Positions 148-9,735 of a stretch of 9,735 nucleotides of DNA are shown here, piece by piece (the first letter of the stretch is position 1; the number at the start of each line of letters is the position of its first letter). The position numbers and the translations under genes are program-made. The notes under the pieces were generated by a model. That model was not told the origin of the DNA, ran no database searches, and worked only from the letters and a program-made list of their open reading frames with translations. The DNA comes from J061 sp003695725 [NCBI: Candidatus Schekmanbacteria bacterium] (GTDB taxonomy: Bacteria; Schekmanbacteria; GWA2-38-11). Location of the stretch: assembly GCA_003695725.1 (NCBI GenBank), contig RFHX01000370.1, positions 1-9,735 on the forward strand, in the 5' to 3' direction.

Positions 148-438
148 ATGAAGAAGAGTTTTTCGATTTTTCTAGCCCTTTATTTTGCTGCAATAATTGG
201 GCTCGTTCAAATCACAACCGAAAACAAAGCCTTTGCAGCGAGCGGGAAAAAACTATTCAAAAAAAATTGTCAATCCTGCCATGGGAAAAAGGGGAAAGGT
301 GCAAACGCACCAAATATTCAGGATGAAAGATTTAAAGAATTCAAACGGACAGTCAAAAAAGGAAAAGGCTCAATGCCCTCATTTTCTTCTCTTAAAAAGA
401 GAAGCATCAAAAAGATATGGAAGTATGTAACAAGATAA
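148..438 (+). CDS. Small exported monohaem c-type cytochrome
   Basis: This is a 96-residue class I cytochrome c-like protein for periplasmic electron transfer. Residues 1-31 form a signal peptide: Lys-Lys, a hydrophobic core at about 5-22, and an AFA-A type cleavage region near 29-31. The haem-attachment motif CxxCH is C41-C44-H45. M76, in a GSMP context, is the probable distal axial ligand, so the fold appears complete within about 65 mature residues, short even for this family. The mature part is strikingly lysine-rich, suggesting a basic protein that docks on acidic partners or membrane. GGAGG at 137-141 sits 6 nt before the ATG and fixes the start. It has its own promoter and no redox-enzyme neighbour here, so its partner cannot be deduced. 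Confidence 0.88.
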   Translation: MKKSFSIFLALYFAAIIGLVQITTENKAFAASGKKLFKKNCQSCHGKKGKGANAPNIQDERFKEFKRTVKKGKGSMPSFSSLKKRSIKKIWKYVTR

Positions 439-4007: not shown

Positions 4008-4637
4008 TCAATATTGATTCAAAAAAGCTTTCTTAGCTTCATATATATATTTTTCAACTTTATCAAAGTCTTTCTTGCCCGGTATTGATTCAACACCGCT
4101 TGCAACATCAACAGCGTAGGGATTGACTGAATTTATCGCATCCGCAACATTATCAGGATTAAGTCCTCCAGAAAGTATTATTTTCCCGTACTCTTTCGCC
4201 TTCAATGCTAAATCCCAATTAAAGGTTTTACCTGTGCCTCCAAGTAGATTTTCATCATATGTATCAACCAAAAACACAGAAACATTGGAGTAATTTTCCA
4301 TAACTTTAATGCTTCCCTCATCTTTTACTCGAATCACTTTTATCACTTTAAATTCTTCAAATGCTTCGAGATATCGAGGACTTTCATTCCCATGAAACTG
4401 CAGATAGTCAAGATTACAATACCTTGCAATTTCCTTTACTTTTTCTATCGACTCATTTACGAACACTCCTACAGCATTGACAAAGGGCGGCAGAGAAGCA
4501 ATGATTTCATATGCTCTTTGTGGAGAAATAGATCGTTTACTCTTCTCATAAAAAATAAAACCTAAGGCATCTACACCTTTTTCCGCACAGTAAAGAGCAT
4601 CTTCTTTATTAGTTATTCCACATATTTTTATCTTCAT
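4008..4637 (-). CDS. trpF: Phosphoribosylanthranilate isomerase (tryptophan biosynthesis)
   Basis: TrpF converts N-(5-phosphoribosyl)anthranilate to CdRP, the third step from chorismate to tryptophan, in the cytoplasm. The 209-residue length is normal for the monofunctional (beta/alpha)8 enzyme. Diagnostic motifs are KICGIT (4-9, catalytic C6), DALGFIFY (23-30), QFHGNES (80-86), the catalytic Asp in VFLVDT (D125), the phosphate loop GGTGKTFNW (133-141), LSGGLNP (155-161) and DVASGVES with GKKD (177-190). The start matches the usual MKIKICGIT. The 20 nt before the ATG on the minus strand are pyrimidine-rich with no Shine-Dalgarno sequence, which is unlike the other genes here. No other trp gene is nearby, so trpF stands alone. 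Confidence 0.96.
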   Translation of the reverse strand: MKIKICGITNKEDALYCAEKGVDALGFIFYEKSKRSISPQRAYEIIASLPPFVNAVGVFVNESIEKVKEIARYCNLDYLQFHGNESPRYLEAFEEFKVIKVIRVKDEGSIKVMENYSNVSVFLVDTYDENLLGGTGKTFNWDLALKAKEYGKIILSGGLNPDNVADAINSVNPYAVDVASGVESIPGKKDFDKVEKYIYEAKKAFLNQY

Positions 4638-4735
4638 AAGTAGAAAGGGAAATTAATACAGAATTTTCATAGAATTAGAATACTAAAATCATATGGACAA
4701 AACCACTTTTTTTTAGTTAAAATAGAAAACACTTT

Positions 4736-4778
4736 TCAGCATTTCTTGCCAGCAGGCCAAAATATTTTAGACCGCTGA
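4736..4778. promoter_or_regulatory. Candidate hairpin/operator element upstream of the antiporter-trehalose operon
   Basis: A relatively GC-rich island sits in an otherwise AT-rich divergent region. CAGC-A-GG (4750-4756) pairs with CCGCTG (4772-4777) with one bulged A, and the enclosed palindrome AAAATATTTT (4759-4768) can extend the stem. The same GCTGA (4774-4778) can instead pair with TCAGC (4736-4740). No T-run follows immediately. It may be an operator, a leader RNA structure, or chance; its role is inference. Confidence 0.3.
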
Positions 4779-4803
4779 CAGTTGGATTTTCTATTTCTAA
4801 TAA
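4775..4803 (+). promoter_or_regulatory. Weak candidate promoter for the CBS-antiporter-trehalose operon
   Basis: CTGACA (4775-4780, five of six) is separated by 17 nt from TAATAA (4798-4803, three of six). If used, the leader to the ATG at 4892 would be about 80 nt, and the hairpin at 4750-4777 would touch the -35 box and act as an operator rather than as RNA. The poor -10 box leaves this uncertain; the operon may use an alternative sigma factor I cannot recognise. Confidence 0.25.
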
Positions 4804-4891
4804 ATTATTAGATGTTTTTCATTGATTTAAAATTAACATAACAAATTCACTAAGATAAATTATTTAAAAGGAAGAAAAAAAGAGAAAAAAT

Positions 4892-5359
4892 ATGCTGATT
4901 AAAGAAATTATGACAACTGATGTCATTTCAGTGAAAAGATCGACTACCTTCAGTGAACTTCTTGAAAAGTTCAAAGACTTTCATCTCTTCCCAATGGTGC
5001 CTGTGATTGAAAATACTGGCAAACTCGTGGGAATTGTTTCATTTAGGGACTTAATCAGCATTTTTACTCCTGTAAAAAATGACATTATCAAAAGAATGCC
5101 CTTTGTTGAACAGGAAGAAGCAGATATCTTCAATGTCGACTTAGCTCCTGAAATGGGAAAACTTATCGTAGTTGAAGACATAATGGATAAAAGGTTTATA
5201 GCTTTGGAAGAAGAAATGACAATCGAAGAGGCATTCAATTTGATGAAACTTCACAAGAAAGATGAACTACCTGTTATTGATAAAGAAGGTAATTTAAAGG
5301 GCTTAGTTGGCATCTTTGATATTGTATGCAGTGTATTCAAGGAAAGAGGTATTTTATAA
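4892..5359 (+). CDS. Tandem CBS-domain protein, probable regulator of the adjacent antiporter
   Basis: This 155-residue cytoplasmic protein consists of two CBS motifs and little else. The first spans about 1-58, opening IKEIMTTDVISV, with LVGIVSFRDL at 45-54. The second spans about 94-150, with VEDIMDKRFIAL, DELPVID (124-130) and LKGLVGIFDIV (135-145). A linker of about 35 residues joins them. CBS pairs bind adenine nucleotides or related ligands and usually control a partner. There is no catalytic domain. Its stop codon abuts the antiporter ATG (TAAATG), so the two are almost certainly co-translated and the antiporter is the likely partner; that is inference. An AGAG site lies 7 nt before the ATG, and a better AGGAAG lies further upstream. 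Confidence 0.87.
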   Translation: MLIKEIMTTDVISVKRSTTFSELLEKFKDFHLFPMVPVIENTGKLVGIVSFRDLISIFTPVKNDIIKRMPFVEQEEADIFNVDLAPEMGKLIVVEDIMDKRFIALEEEMTIEEAFNLMKLHKKDELPVIDKEGNLKGLVGIFDIVCSVFKERGIL

Positions 5360-6538
5360 ATGAATCTTATATTGGGGACAGGTTTTATATTCCTTACATC
5401 ATTATTGTCAGCAAGAATAATAGGCAAGTTTAAACTTCCTGTAGTAACAGCTTACCTTCTTCTTGGTATATTGATTGGTCCGCATATCCTTAAACTGGTC
5501 CCAGTAAAGCTATTGAGCGTATCTAATATTGTTTCAAATATCGTTCTTGGAATAATTGCCTTTGGAATTGGACAAAACTTTCAGATAAGCACATTTAAAA
5601 AAATAGGCAAATCAGTAACATGGATTTCAGTGCTTGAGTCTATTGGAGCATGGACACTCGTTACAGCGGCATTCTTTTTCATTGTTAGGCAACCGTTATA
5701 TGTTTCGCTATTATTTGGTGCAATTGCGGCAGCAACAGACCCTGTTGCCACAATAATGGTAATAAGAGAATATAGGACAAAGGGGGTTTTTACAGATACG
5801 CTTTTAAGCGTTGTAGCCATAGATGATGCATGGGGGCTTATAATATTTGCCCTTTCACTTGCCATTTCTCGTGCTCTTTATGGGCATCAAATCGCTCCCA
5901 CATATCTTTTGGAAACATTGGGCTTTTCTCTTCTTGAAATTTTTGGAGCTTTTATTTTAGGTGGAATTGCTGCATTCGTACTTTCTTATTTCTCCAAATA
6001 TATAAAGAGCAAAACAGAACTTCTTACATTTACACTTGGATTTGTTTTACTTGTAATCGGGCTTGCAATTGAATTAAGGTTGTCTGTTTTGCTTGCTAAT
6101 ATGTTTTTTGGTTCAGTCCTTGTAAATATAAATAAGTCTTCTTTCCAATTTTTTGACATTCTCAATACAATCGATTCTCAACTCTTTTTAATCTTTTTTG
6201 TCCTTGCAGGGGCAAATCTTGAAGTTGGACTCTTGCCGAAGCTTGGCTTATTGGGAGTCTCTTATCTCCTTGTAAGAGTAGTGGGAAAAGTTTCCGGCGC
6301 AGGACTTGGCGGTATATTGGGAAAATCTCCTTCAAATGTTAGAAAATACATTGGATTTGCACTTGTGCCTCAAGCCGGTGTAGCCCTTGCCTGCGCTCTT
6401 ATAGCAAAAAATGACTTTCCAGAGATTGGTAATATGATTTTCAGCACAATTGTTGCAACAACAGTAATTTATGAGTTGATTGGTCCAATTTGCAGTAAAT
6501 TTGCCCTTGTAAAAGCCGGCGAAATCACAAAAGAATAA
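5360..6538 (+). CDS. CPA-superfamily cation:proton antiporter (KefB/NapA-like membrane domain)
   Basis: This 392-residue integral membrane protein has about 11-13 hydrophobic helices. The first resembles the CPA2 opening, with LPVVTAYLLLGILIGP at 26-41. The ion-binding core is recognisable: ATDPVAT (125-131) in the unwound helix and the adjacent acidic pair D155-D156 in VAIDDAWG. A DD pair is typical of electrogenic CPA2 exchangers, whereas electroneutral CPA1 members carry ND. FVLAGANLEVGLL (280-292) and RVVGK (306-310) are also family-like. It ends after the last helices with no RCK/TrkA-N domain, so regulation may come from the upstream CBS protein. It likely exchanges Na+ or K+ for H+; the ion cannot be read from sequence. 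AGAGGT lies inside the CBS gene, 9 nt before the ATG. Confidence 0.92.
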   Translation: MNLILGTGFIFLTSLLSARIIGKFKLPVVTAYLLLGILIGPHILKLVPVKLLSVSNIVSNIVLGIIAFGIGQNFQISTFKKIGKSVTWISVLESIGAWTLVTAAFFFIVRQPLYVSLLFGAIAAATDPVATIMVIREYRTKGVFTDTLLSVVAIDDAWGLIIFALSLAISRALYGHQIAPTYLLETLGFSLLEIFGAFILGGIAAFVLSYFSKYIKSKTELLTFTLGFVLLVIGLAIELRLSVLLANMFFGSVLVNINKSSFQFFDILNTIDSQLFLIFFVLAGANLEVGLLPKLGLLGVSYLLVRVVGKVSGAGLGGILGKSPSNVRKYIGFALVPQAGVALACALIAKNDFPEIGNMIFSTIVATTVIYELIGPICSKFALVKAGEITKE

Positions 6539-6541
6539 AAA

Positions 6542-7336
6542 ATGAAATATCTTTTCTTCGCTCTCGATGAAATCAAAAGAAAAATGAAAAAGAAGAACAT
6601 TTTTCTCTTTTTGGACTACGATGGAACTTTATCTCCAATTGTTGATTCACCAGATAAAGCTATTCTTCCCAATGAAACAAAAGAAACCATACAGAAGCTT
6701 TCCAATCTAAAAGATTTTGGAATTGCTATAATAAGCGGCAGAGCAATAAATGATATCAAAAAAAGAGTGGGGATAAAAAAAATAATCTATGCAGGAAATC
6801 ATGGATTTGAAATTGCAGGAATAAAAAAGAAGCCTAAAATAGGGGGATTAGAAAAATTTAAAAAAACTTTAAAGAAAATCAAAAAGACATTGAATGAAAA
6901 AGTCGGCAAAATCGAAGGCGTAATAATAGAATGTAAGGGAATATCCCTTACATTCCACTATAGAATGGTAAATGATAAAGATGTAAGATATGCAAAAAAA
7001 ATATTCAAAAAAATCGTCAATAAATATGTTGATAATGAAGAAGTTCGTTTGAAAGGTGGCAAAAAGGTTATTGAAATAAGGCCACCTGTCGATTGGGATA
7101 AAGGCAAAGCGGTATTATTTATTTTGAACGCTATAGAAAATAAATTTAAAAGGAAATTTTATCCTATTTATATCGGCGACGATAAAACCGATGAAGATGC
7201 ATTCAAGGTGTTAAATAAAAAAGGACTTTGTATCAGAATTGGAAGGTCGAAAAAAACATTTGCAAATTATTATTTAAAGAATACGGCTGAAACAGTAAAA
7301 TTTCTTGAAAGATTGATAACTTTTAAAGAGGCGTAA
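6542..7336 (+). CDS. otsB: Trehalose-6-phosphate phosphatase (HAD superfamily)
   Basis: OtsB removes phosphate from trehalose 6-phosphate to give trehalose in the cytoplasm. HAD motifs are complete in this 264-residue protein: motif I LDYDGTLSPIVDSP (24-37, nucleophile D25 and acid/base D27), motif II IISGR (63-67), GNHGFE (85-90) before the cap domain, and motif IV YIGDDKTDEDAF (210-221), the OtsB version of the Mg-binding loop. The cap (about 95-180) is very lysine-rich. Length is typical. The start is 3 nt after the antiporter stop with a poor ribosome site; the in-frame ATG at 6584 (residue 15) is an alternative that keeps motif I. Its neighbours are an antiporter and a GT4 trehalose synthase rather than OtsA (GT20), which is unusual. 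Confidence 0.93.
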   Translation: MKYLFFALDEIKRKMKKKNIFLFLDYDGTLSPIVDSPDKAILPNETKETIQKLSNLKDFGIAIISGRAINDIKKRVGIKKIIYAGNHGFEIAGIKKKPKIGGLEKFKKTLKKIKKTLNEKVGKIEGVIIECKGISLTFHYRMVNDKDVRYAKKIFKKIVNKYVDNEEVRLKGGKKVIEIRPPVDWDKGKAVLFILNAIENKFKRKFYPIYIGDDKTDEDAFKVLNKKGLCIRIGRSKKTFANYYLKNTAETVKFLERLITFKEA

Positions 7337-7339
7337 AAA

Positions 7340-8008
7340 ATGGCAAGTCTTGAAAGAGCAAAACAACCTTTTCACTTCCATACCCGGCTTCACCTCTCAG
7401 AGCTTACAGGGCTTAGAGCAAGCAATTTAAATGAATTCCTATATCTTTTAAAAGAAGTTCCCGGCTCTTGCATATATCATCACACACATAGGTTTTTGCA
7501 GCAGCATCAATATATTTCCCCTGCCCCTCCTAATGATTTTGCCCTTTGGGTAGAAGAAGCTCTCAATGAGGATGAGCTTGCAGAAAAACTTGCAAGCATA
7601 GATACGATAGAGTTTTCAACAATCAGAAGTCTGCGGGAAAAGATAATATCTACAATCGAAAATTATCTCAATGAAAACCCAATGGCTAAACTCAAATTTG
7701 CAAGAAAAGGAGAGGAATTCGACTTTGTCAAATCAGTGAGTTTTATTATTCCTACAAAATATAAAGCACATAATACTAAAGAATTTCTTGAAATTCTCAA
7801 AAAGATAACTATTGATTCGATTTACTTTCATATCTTTGAGGCACGCCTGAGGCTTGAAAGAGGAACAAATGATTTTTCATATTGGTTTGAAACATCAGTA
7901 TGGAACAAAGGGTTAGCTGACAAAATTGCTAAATTAGATCCGTATACATATACACTTGAAAATTTGAGGTCTGCAATAATCGAAATAATTGAAAATGACA
8001 AGGGTTAA
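7340..8008 (+). CDS. DUF5752-type protein of unknown function with internal duplication
   Basis: This 222-residue soluble protein has no signal peptide or membrane helix. I recognise it as resembling DUF5752 proteins found beside trehalose synthases; the function is unknown. It shows two repeats, at about 11-110 and 127-220. Each opens F-x-F, then has EFL-x(2)-L-K (32-38; 148-154), S-x-IY-x-H or SIYFH (43-47; 160-164), NDF-x(2)-W-x-E (65-72; 178-184 with FE), ELAEKLASID/GLADKIAKLD (79-88; 191-200) and a closing LR-x(2)-II-x(2)-IEN helix. The first repeat is rich in His (FHFH, HHTH). AGAGG 8 nt upstream sets the start, and the gaps to otsB and treT are 3 and 2 nt. Position suggests a regulatory or scaffolding subunit of trehalose synthesis; that is inference. 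Confidence 0.8.
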   Translation: MASLERAKQPFHFHTRLHLSELTGLRASNLNEFLYLLKEVPGSCIYHHTHRFLQQHQYISPAPPNDFALWVEEALNEDELAEKLASIDTIEFSTIRSLREKIISTIENYLNENPMAKLKFARKGEEFDFVKSVSFIIPTKYKAHNTKEFLEILKKITIDSIYFHIFEARLRLERGTNDFSYWFETSVWNKGLADKIAKLDPYTYTLENLRSAIIEIIENDKG

Positions 8009-8010
8009 CA

Positions 8011-9222
8011 ATGGCAAAAATAGATGAATATATACCAATTGTTGGACAGGCAGTAATCGATGATTTGAAATTGCTCTCCGAAAAACTTAACGGAAAAGTG
8101 ATACAAAATGTAAATTCCACTTCTGTTGGGGGCGGAGTTGCTGAAATACTAAATAGAATGATTCCGCTTCTTCGAGAAATAGGTGTCAACGCCGAATGGG
8201 ATGTAATAGATGGCAATCCAGAGTTCTTTGATGTAACAAAAAAATTTCACAATGCGCTTCACGGCAGTAAGGTCAATATAATTCAGAAGGACTTTGAAAC
8301 ATTTCTTGCAACGAGTGAAGAAAATATAAAAAAAATGGAAATCAAGGGGGATATAGTATTTATTCATGACCCTCAGCCCATAGCATTGGTAAAAAAGAAA
8401 AATGACAATAAATGGATATGGCGATGTCACATCGATGTTTCAAATCCCGAACAATCAGTTTGGAATTTTCTAATGCAATTTATTGTTAACTATGATTCAT
8501 CAGTCTTTTCTGCGCCTGTATTTTCACAGAAACTTCCAATAAGACAATTTATGATTTCTCCTTCCATTGACCCATTGAGTGATAAAAATAAAGAGCTTCC
8601 ACAGGATGTTATAGATAAGGTAGTGGAAAAATACAATATACCGACTGACAAACCAATAATTACTCAAATATCCCGTTTTGACAGACTGAAAGACCCTGTA
8701 GGAGTTATCGATGCATATAGGCAGGTAAAAAGACATATCGACTGCCGCCTTATTTTAGCTGGCGGTACTGCTACAGATGACCCTGAAGGACTACAGGTCC
8801 TTGAAGAAGTGCAAAATAGAGCTGATGGAGACAAGGATATACTCATACTACTCTTGCCACAGGATGACATCGTTATCAATGCCATTCAGAGGATTTCTAC
8901 TGTCATCCTACAAAAATCCATCAAAGAAGGCTTTGGATTAACTGTTTCCGAAGCCCTTTGGAAAGCTAAACCGGTAGTTGCATCCAATGTTGGTGGAATA
9001 CCTCTTCAGATAAAACACAAACACACTGGTATGCTTTGCCATTCAATCGAAGGAGCGGCTTTTGCCTTAAAACAAATACTCAATTCACCTGAATTAGCTA
9101 AACGCCTTGGTGAAAATGGCAAAGAGCATGTGCGTCACAACTTTCTTCTGACACGACATATGAAGGAATATATGCTTCTATTCCTCTCCTTGTACTGTAA
9201 TGACGATATAGTAAGATTGTAG
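8011..9222 (+). CDS. treT: GT4 glycosyltransferase, trehalose synthase TreT / trehalose phosphorylase group
   Basis: This 403-residue GT-B enzyme matches the group containing archaeal and bacterial TreT, which makes trehalose from NDP-glucose and glucose, and the fungal retaining trehalose phosphorylase. Visible marks are the N-terminal STSVGGGVAEIL loop (36-47), WDVIDGNPEFFDVTK (63-77) and HNALHG (80-85). IHDPQP (118-123) and WRCHIDVS (137-144) follow, then ISRFDRLKDP opening the second Rossmann domain (220-229), and the GT4 E-x7-E motif with E306 and E314 (KEGFGLTVSEAL). ASNVGGIP (324-331) follows. Length is slightly below typical TreT. AAGGG lies 6 nt before the ATG. It closes a five-gene run after otsB and DUF5752. 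Whether it uses glucose, glucose 6-phosphate or phosphate as co-substrate cannot be settled here. Confidence 0.88.
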   Translation: MAKIDEYIPIVGQAVIDDLKLLSEKLNGKVIQNVNSTSVGGGVAEILNRMIPLLREIGVNAEWDVIDGNPEFFDVTKKFHNALHGSKVNIIQKDFETFLATSEENIKKMEIKGDIVFIHDPQPIALVKKKNDNKWIWRCHIDVSNPEQSVWNFLMQFIVNYDSSVFSAPVFSQKLPIRQFMISPSIDPLSDKNKELPQDVIDKVVEKYNIPTDKPIITQISRFDRLKDPVGVIDAYRQVKRHIDCRLILAGGTATDDPEGLQVLEEVQNRADGDKDILILLLPQDDIVINAIQRISTVILQKSIKEGFGLTVSEALWKAKPVVASNVGGIPLQIKHKHTGMLCHSIEGAAFALKQILNSPELAKRLGENGKEHVRHNFLLTRHMKEYMLLFLSLYCNDDIVRL

Positions 9223-9246: not shown

Positions 9247-9735
9247 TTACAATACTCTGACCTTGCAGATTTCCCCCGGCTCCGCCTTCATTTTAACGCC
9301 GGCTTTTTCAGCAAATCTTTCCCATACAGGAATGCACCACTTGTTGCAGACATCCTTCCATTCAATCTCATATGTGCCAAGATATTTTTGGATATTTTCA
9401 AGGATATCCTTATAAGGACAGGGAAAAGAACGCTCATTCTTTTTGATATCTATATGTTCATACAACTGATATGAACAACTTGTTCTTTCAAATATGCCCC
9501 ATAAATAGAAATCCTTATTTCCTGTCCTTTGAATTGCCGGTTTGATATGCCTTTCTATAACAGGATTCAGTACATTCGTATAATGTTCAACAAATTCCTT
9601 ATCAATCCCCTTTCTCACAGAAAAATCGAGGTTTCTCAAGTGCACCTTTACAAGGGCATCGTAAAATTTATGAGGATAGGGGTCTATATTGCTGTAAGTC
9701 TTAACAAGGACCTTCAGGGCATCTGAAAGGTCTTC
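9247..9735 (-). CDS. Unrecognised cysteine-containing protein, N-terminus beyond the window
   Basis: The reading frame is open from the right edge to a TAA at 9247-9249, giving the last 162 residues of a larger protein. A GTG at 9643-9645 could start a 132-residue product, but the frame continues upstream with normal-looking protein, so I take the gene as 5'-truncated. It is mixed helical and soluble-looking, with aromatic-rich stretches (DFYLWGIFERTSCSY). Cysteines are at visible residues 87, 106, 130, 134 and 157, including CNKWC followed by IPVWERFAEKAGVKM. The cysteine spacing recalls ligand- or metal-binding families such as DUF6125 or L-2-amino-thiazoline-4-carboxylate hydrolase-like proteins, but I cannot claim membership. 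It converges on treT with a 24-bp gap and belongs to a different transcription unit. Confidence 0.65.
   Translation of the reverse strand, partial: EDLSDALKVLVKTYSNIDPYPHKFYDALVKVHLRNLDFSVRKGIDKEFVEHYTNVLNPVIERHIKPAIQRTGNKDFYLWGIFERTSCSYQLYEHIDIKKNERSFPCPYKDILENIQKYLGTYEIEWKDVCNKWCIPVWERFAEKAGVKMKAEPGEICKVRVL

Follow-up and report, generated by a model that had tools for sequence, protein, structure and literature searches.

Bacteria under salt stress have to move ions and also to make compatible solutes, and in the best-studied species these two tasks are wired through separate genes. A contig of the Candidatus Schekmanbacteria genome J061 sp003695725 raises the question whether ion transport and solute synthesis can be combined in one operon. 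The window analysed here (RFHX01000370.1, the entire contig G000:C370, with a length of 9,735 nucleotides) contains five consecutive genes on the forward strand, encoding a two-CBS-domain protein, a cation/proton antiporter of the CPA superfamily, the trehalose-6-phosphate phosphatase OtsB, a DUF5752 protein and a TreT-type glycosyltransferase of family GT4. With moderate confidence we read these genes as an osmotic or ionic stress operon composed of two modules, which would be a variant of the archaeal msc-gt-tpsp kind.

A preliminary description of this DNA had placed the five genes in one direction with gaps of 0, 3, 3 and 2 bp. The re-derived coordinates agree with this layout exactly, and the gene identities given there were borne out by Pfam and NCBIfam. 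The first gene (4892-5359, + strand, 155 aa) encodes two CBS domains (PF00571 x2, 3.1e-26) and is probably the regulatory subunit of the antiporter encoded at 5360-6538 (+, 392 aa; PF00999, 1.8e-31), which carries a D155-D156 motif. OtsB follows at 6542-7336 (+, 264 aa; PF02358, 2.8e-53, and TIGR00685), then the DUF5752 protein, a member of the OrfY family with an internal duplication, at 7340-8008 (+, 222 aa; PF19027, 1.3e-69), and finally the GT4 enzyme at 8011-9222 (+, 403 aa; PF21269, 8.5e-56, and PF00534 (Glycos_transf_1), 9.2e-26). Judged by this spacing, the five genes are probably transcribed as a single message.

In such an operon, the two-CBS protein would sense a nucleotide and adjust the DD-type antiporter, which would exchange a monovalent cation for protons. 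In the second module, the TreT-type GT4 enzyme would make trehalose or its phosphate from nucleoside diphosphate (NDP)-glucose, and OtsB would dephosphorylate trehalose-6-phosphate delivered either by this enzyme or by a separate OtsA-OtsB fusion protein of the same genome. The DUF5752 protein may tune the GT4 enzyme or operon expression, and it could do so as a sensor of trehalose or of a sugar phosphate. A common stress signal acting on one message would then cause a toxic cation to be extruded while a neutral osmolyte accumulates.

How regularly these genes occur together was examined in two sets of genomes. The first comprises the best 80 of at least 549 confirmed DUF5752 matches (the named loci); these are mostly from Omnitrophota, so that the shares given are not phylum-neutral, and many of the contigs are short (42 of the 80 extend 4.5 kb or more upstream). 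In every one of the 80, DUF5752 is followed by TreT. OtsB lies beside DUF5752 in 64 loci, a GT20 gene (OtsA) is located upstream in 63, or in 39 of the 42 with the longer upstream sequence, and 29 loci have an MscS gene or domain nearby. The second set consists of 60 genomes of relatives; 17 of them, counting that of the window, match DUF5752. Here, DUF5752 and TreT are adjacent in all of the 11 full-length non-window loci examined, and nine of these have OtsB in the same stretch. Because of these neighbourhood counts, OrfY (DUF5752) and TreT are considered a fixed core, with OtsA and OtsB as regular partners.

The complete order CBS-CPA-OtsB-DUF5752-TreT was found in five Omnitrophota loci, namely L029, whose contig ends inside TreT, L047, L058, L074 and L161. 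A sixth Omnitrophota case, in genome G061, has the same order split over the contigs L158 and L035. Conservation of this neighbourhood, for which the preliminary description had proposed a search across genomes, is thus not limited to close relatives, as the five-gene order recurs in another phylum. The CPA and OtsB genes overlap by 4 bp in L029, L035, L058 and L161; gaps of 4 bp and 179 bp separate them in L074 and L047, respectively. A GT20 gene, whole or cut by the contig end, is present further upstream in the five-gene Omnitrophota loci. Trehalose synthesis genes have been reported for Omnitrophota, and the covered parts of that report describe no such antiporter operon (PMC8542988).

Transporters other than the CPA antiporter also occur inside the operons of related loci. 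The count of interposed genes covers the 71 named loci in which GT20 or OtsB can be seen (L078 was skipped). A same-strand gene is interposed before DUF5752 in 12 of the 71, and 11 of these 12 loci have a channel or transporter there (10 without DUF1646). MscS, CPA or both account for nine: MscS is interposed in L034, L043, L047, L058, L062, L080 and L086, and the CBS-CPA pair in L029, L047, L058 and L074. Further transporters at this position are a PF01699 exchanger (L043, which also contains two Band_7 genes), a CLC channel (L069) and a DUF1646 protein (L067), a family of which some members are annotated as cation transporters. The sole same-strand case without a transporter is L104, which has only a second GT4 gene. 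Open reading frames (ORFs) of any strand are interposed in 14 of the 71 loci, with L082 and L087 having them on the opposite strand only. L035, with its CPA gene before OtsB at a contig edge, stands outside the 12. In L056, moreover, a gene for a CPA antiporter with a TrkA_C domain immediately precedes the operon, and MgtE directly precedes DUF5752 in L093. The loci are related and the 11 of 12 has no matched background count behind it, so that the enrichment of transporters at this slot is no more than suggestive.

The CBS protein is tied to the antiporter by gene pairing and by gene fusion, as the preliminary description had assumed. Among 38 CPA genes listed, the 30 close homologues with a readable neighbourhood all have a CBS gene directly upstream, often with a 4-bp overlap; three further genes lie at contig edges, and five are remote homologues without a separate CBS gene. 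Three long members of this last group (544-558 aa; 36-38% identity to the window CPA) were scanned, and all three proved to be single-chain fusions of CPA with two CBS domains. For the other two, L188 and L189, no CBS gene was found. At L189 (274-1956), a gene of the phosphotransferase system (PTS) EIIA type adjoins the antiporter in place of CBS, which is another soluble regulatory partner. The fusion proteins resemble the window pair in combining PF00999 with two CBS domains, but they form one chain with the CBS part at the C-terminus, whereas the window has two genes with CBS first. The window pair thus appears as the split form of the fusion protein, which therefore provides the best evidence for an action of CBS on the antiporter. 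Very probably the CBS protein is the regulatory partner of the antiporter, and it may change transport upon sensing a nucleotide. The papers listed in a literature search on CBS domains and antiporters concern c-di-AMP and osmotic stress. Outside trehalose operons, the CBS-CPA pairs of L163 and L201 adjoin MscS genes.

The antiporter itself passes the PF00999 model (109.8 bits, cut-off 26.2) and misses the cut-off of the CPA2 subfamily model TIGR00932 (39.7 vs 238.3 bits). It weakly matches the Na+/H+ antiporter structures 4czb (3e-06) and 4cz8 (7.7e-06). All 32 aligned CPAs, that of the window among them, have the D155-D156 pair, which aligns with the N-D of 4czb. With two neighbouring aspartates at the position of transmembrane segment 5 (TM5), the protein belongs to the DD-type antiporters, which we take to be those named NapA/NhaA-like. 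Such a DD motif would go with electrogenic exchange.

Both enzymes of the second module can be assigned to known families. OtsB exceeds the equivalog cut-off of TIGR00685 (182.1 vs 68.05 bits), and its HAD motifs, D25/D27/T29 and G212-D213-D214, are shared without exception by 71 aligned sequences, the window's among them. The GT4 enzyme has the domain composition of TreT, with the PF21269 N-terminal domain preceding a GT4 domain. Near full-length matches were obtained to the solved chains 6zj4 (1.1e-124) and 2x6q (1.3e-102), the former named as 'trehalose phosphorylase/synthase' and the latter as TreT. E306 of the window enzyme falls on a position at which 2x6q and 2xa2 differ (E/A). The window enzyme has Glu where 2xa2 has Ala, and all 83 aligned sequences, that of the window among them, share this Glu. 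The score against the NCBIfam equivalog NF041139, built for Thermococcales TreT, is below the cut-off (377.2 vs 775 bits). A TreT enzyme (EC 2.4.1.245) follows a route that needs neither OtsB nor OtsA, whereas GT4 enzymes of the window type are encoded beside OtsB and usually OtsA too. From these similarities, the predicted product is trehalose or its phosphate, made from NDP-glucose.

Here, a second assignment has to be considered, which we regard as possible and put forward tentatively: the GT4 enzyme could be a trehalose-6-phosphate synthase (TPS) or an activating partner of OtsA and OtsB, so that GT4 and OtsB would catalyse consecutive steps or form one complex. The frequent company of OtsB and GT20 in the named loci is in line with such a role, as is the low score against NF041139. 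Archaeal precedents exist as well in the parts of two reports covered here: the TPS activity of Thermoproteus tenax requires the co-expressed glycosyltransferase (PMC3634074), and Saci_1249 of Sulfolobus acidocaldarius is a GT4 TPS that exists beside TreT (PMC7688234). On the other hand, the closest solved chains are the two named above, matched over nearly their full length, and Saci_1249 is a much weaker TreT homologue than Saci_1827 according to the same parts of the latter report (PMC7688234). The acceptor cannot be told from sequence alone. In a search of the window's genome, the sole GT20 above cut-off was a GT20-OtsB fusion of ~740 aa on contig C44 (L185); the genome therefore has two OtsB domains, one in this fusion and one in the operon.

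In many relatives OtsA takes a different form. It is fused to an N-terminal membrane sensor with the arrangement TM - Cache-like - TM - HAMP-like (~745 aa) in 43 of the 80 named loci, as detected with phmmer; examples are L047:1900-4137, L161:4310, L190 and L023:8743-11337, the last being the locus of genome G002. Among 44 long GT20 proteins from the loci (700 aa or more, no OtsB match), 43 have at least two hydrophobic segments ahead of the GT20 domain. A scan of 21 GT20 N-terminal parts (E up to 0.01) gave sCache_3_2 in 13, dCache_1 in seven and HAMP in three; in the one member viewed in full, the Cache and HAMP scores are under the curated cut-offs. The structural model of one such protein (predicted local distance difference test score, pLDDT, 82.1) has the WalK sensor and further sensors of the Cache type among its matches. 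These proteins look like membrane receptors that have trehalose-6-phosphate synthase as the output domain, and no paper pairing this enzyme with a Cache or HAMP domain was among the literature matches listed. The GT20 search of the window's genome did not find the sensor-fused form.

The DUF5752 protein scores 234.1 bits against PF19027, with a gathering threshold of 23. The family profile matches PDB entry 4CSO, OrfY of T. tenax (E 2e-47), and the AlphaFold model of the window protein (pLDDT 88.6) superimposes on 4cso with Z 20.6 and a root-mean-square deviation of 3.0 over 211 aligned residues. The fold of OrfY is thus common to the window protein over its whole length, at 31% identity. This match ruled out that DUF5752 is a family without known relative. 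The next match in the PDB comparison reached only Z 3.8; no other convincing fold was found there, which does not show its absence. The internal duplication was recognised by eye from an H...DFxxW...D signature in both halves, and H48, D66, W70, H164, D178 and W182 are invariant in 43 aligned sequences. No paper dealing with DUF5752 by name was found in the literature searched.

Two kinds of fusion bear on what this protein may do. Four loci in three Dehalococcoidia genomes encode a 457-aa fusion of MscS with DUF5752 (L101:2397-3770, L103:707-2080, L105:708-2081 and L107:3045-4418), in which DUF5752 comes directly after the beta domain of the channel; the MscS C-terminal domain was not found in these proteins (E up to 0.01). 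In L013, L014 and L015, a partial DUF5752 is located between response regulator and PPDK_N (phosphoenolpyruvate synthase-like) domains in proteins of more than 900 aa. One might suppose that DUF5752/OrfY regulates the operon by binding DNA, since 4CSO was deposited as OrfY protein, transcription factor, although this is a label only, and the constant position next to TreT would fit a regulator. We consider this doubtful, as the four MscS fusions would tether DUF5752 to the membrane and half domains occur in the response regulator-PPDK_N proteins. A sensory role, as in the two-module reading, may be pictured more broadly. The ion-transport slot would be interchangeable between MscS, CPA, a CaCA-type exchanger and CLC, with OrfY and TreT fixed, and OrfY/DUF5752 would be a trehalose- or sugar-phosphate-responsive domain that couples osmolyte synthesis to ion flux; in this general form the idea is speculative, and we rate it as unlikely. 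The same low probability is given to its extension, a self-contained osmostat in which DUF5752 serves as the cytoplasmic part of MscS in Dehalococcoidia, OtsA is often a receptor output in Omnitrophota, and a CBS-gated antiporter forms the ion arm in the window.

The nearest known system is msc-gt-tpsp of T. tenax. As described in the covered parts of the T. tenax report, the genes for a mechanosensitive channel, a glycosyltransferase and trehalose-6-phosphate synthase/phosphatase share a tricistronic transcript, and a joint response to osmotic stress was put forward there (PMC3634074). The wider family found here resembles this operon in GT20, OtsB, GT4 and often MscS. The window differs in that GT20 and MscS are missing (no MscS was found among its ORFs scanned with Pfam), in that a CBS protein, a CPA antiporter and an OrfY-family protein are present, and in being bacterial. 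By analogy, the window may represent a stress operon with a CBS-gated antiporter as the ion arm. A further published precedent is a strain of S. acidocaldarius without its three trehalose routes, for which the parts of that study covered here report no growth under salt stress (PMC7688234).

A number of results weigh against a joint function of the two modules. The CPA antiporter is present in only five of the 80 named loci, neither a CPA antiporter nor a CBS gene was found in any of the 11 loci of the relatives set, and none of the three nearest genomes (G001-G003, from the same family or order) matches CPA; the one among them that holds the core, G002, has sensor-GT20, OtsB, DUF5752 and TreT. 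Among 28 Omnitrophota genomes with a CPA match of at least 44% identity, 27 contexts were examined (that of L029 included, G296 left out), and trehalose genes adjoin CPA in only two; of the 25 unlinked contexts, two end just downstream of CPA. GT4 matches beside the CBS-CPA pairs in L167-L169 were rejected as trehalose genes, since they have no TreT N-terminal domain and two carry GT9 (one of each kind's two GT4 matches was scanned, four proteins in total). The Pfam scan of the window ORFs found no GT20, so that OtsA is missing from the operon itself. Of two further CPA loci, L201 has the CBS gene upstream; L202 has it downstream, and this slightly lowers confidence in the two-module reading. 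In the antiporter, the TM4-type motif is variable, with TAPAA in 21 of 32 CPAs and TDPVA in the window only, which speaks against a firm choice of ion. Finally, the covered parts of the T. tenax report describe, beside the tricistronic transcript, a monocistronic transcript of tpsp under a promoter of its own (PMC3634074), which indicates that such operons can uncouple.

The phylogenetic trees belong to the same question. In a quick tree of the core (OtsB, DUF5752 and TreT; SH-aLRT only; L029 dropped because its TreT is cut), the six CPA-linked rows, window included, need 6 changes, of which at least 4 are forced by starred branches, so that several lineages formed or retained the link between CPA and the trehalose genes. 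The clustering of the CPA-linked rows does not exceed that of shuffled labels, which adds to the evidence against a joint function. The tree has long branches for L021, L024 and L028; in these three, the OtsB used does not immediately precede DUF5752 and is possibly a paralogue. In the CPA tree, the linked antiporters fall into one 11-row clade that also holds five unlinked CPAs (94/87, which narrowly misses a star). The CPA tree would thus allow a single origin of the link, whereas the core tree scatters the linked loci. Either an old association was repeatedly lost, or it was repeatedly made, always directly upstream of otsB.

A fixed five-gene system is therefore rejected in favour of two modules with CPA as an optional part. 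From the scatter of linked loci, the many CPA contexts without adjoining trehalose genes and the lack of CPA in the three nearest genomes, one could go further and regard the antiporter as incidental company, a mobile unit of the two genes CBS and CPA that was inserted into a trehalose operon and is co-transcribed with it but shares no physiology. We consider this rather unlikely, because the pair occupies the same slot every time and unrelated channel or transporter families are found in 11 of the 12 interposed loci, with MscS even fused to DUF5752. The joint reading of ion extrusion and trehalose synthesis given in the preliminary description stands in part: the recurrence with trehalose genes and the transporters in the operons of relatives are in its favour, and the optional nature of the antiporter speaks against it. 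Its stronger form, with stoichiometry and timing coupled under a single stress signal, is a conjecture.

The surroundings of the operon agree with a native location. The MltG gene of the contig is single-copy in the genome (2.77 Mb, 97.8% complete), and its identity falls from 57% in the same family to 46% and 44% in the same order, so that the contig is very probably native to this genome and a binning artefact was rejected. Upstream, trpF (4008-4637, - strand) diverges from the operon, and the intergenic region between it and the CBS gene (4638-4891) is a putative operon promoter. An ORF without Pfam or NCBIfam match converges from downstream (9247-9735, -) and is open at the contig end. A sigma-70 scan of the window gave 39 sites against 34.6 +/- 6.6 in shuffled sequences and is uninformative on internal promoters; a terminator scan of the window remained at chance level. 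The window also encodes, at 148-438 (+), a small c-type cytochrome that looks secreted and carries a CxxCH motif (PF13442).

A fixed trehalose core into which a channel or exchanger is plugged would make the coordination of ion movement and solute synthesis testable with few genes. The recurring operon would also give a physiological setting to the uncharacterised DUF5752/OrfY family, and the archaeal msc-gt-tpsp idea would be extended to several uncultured bacterial phyla.

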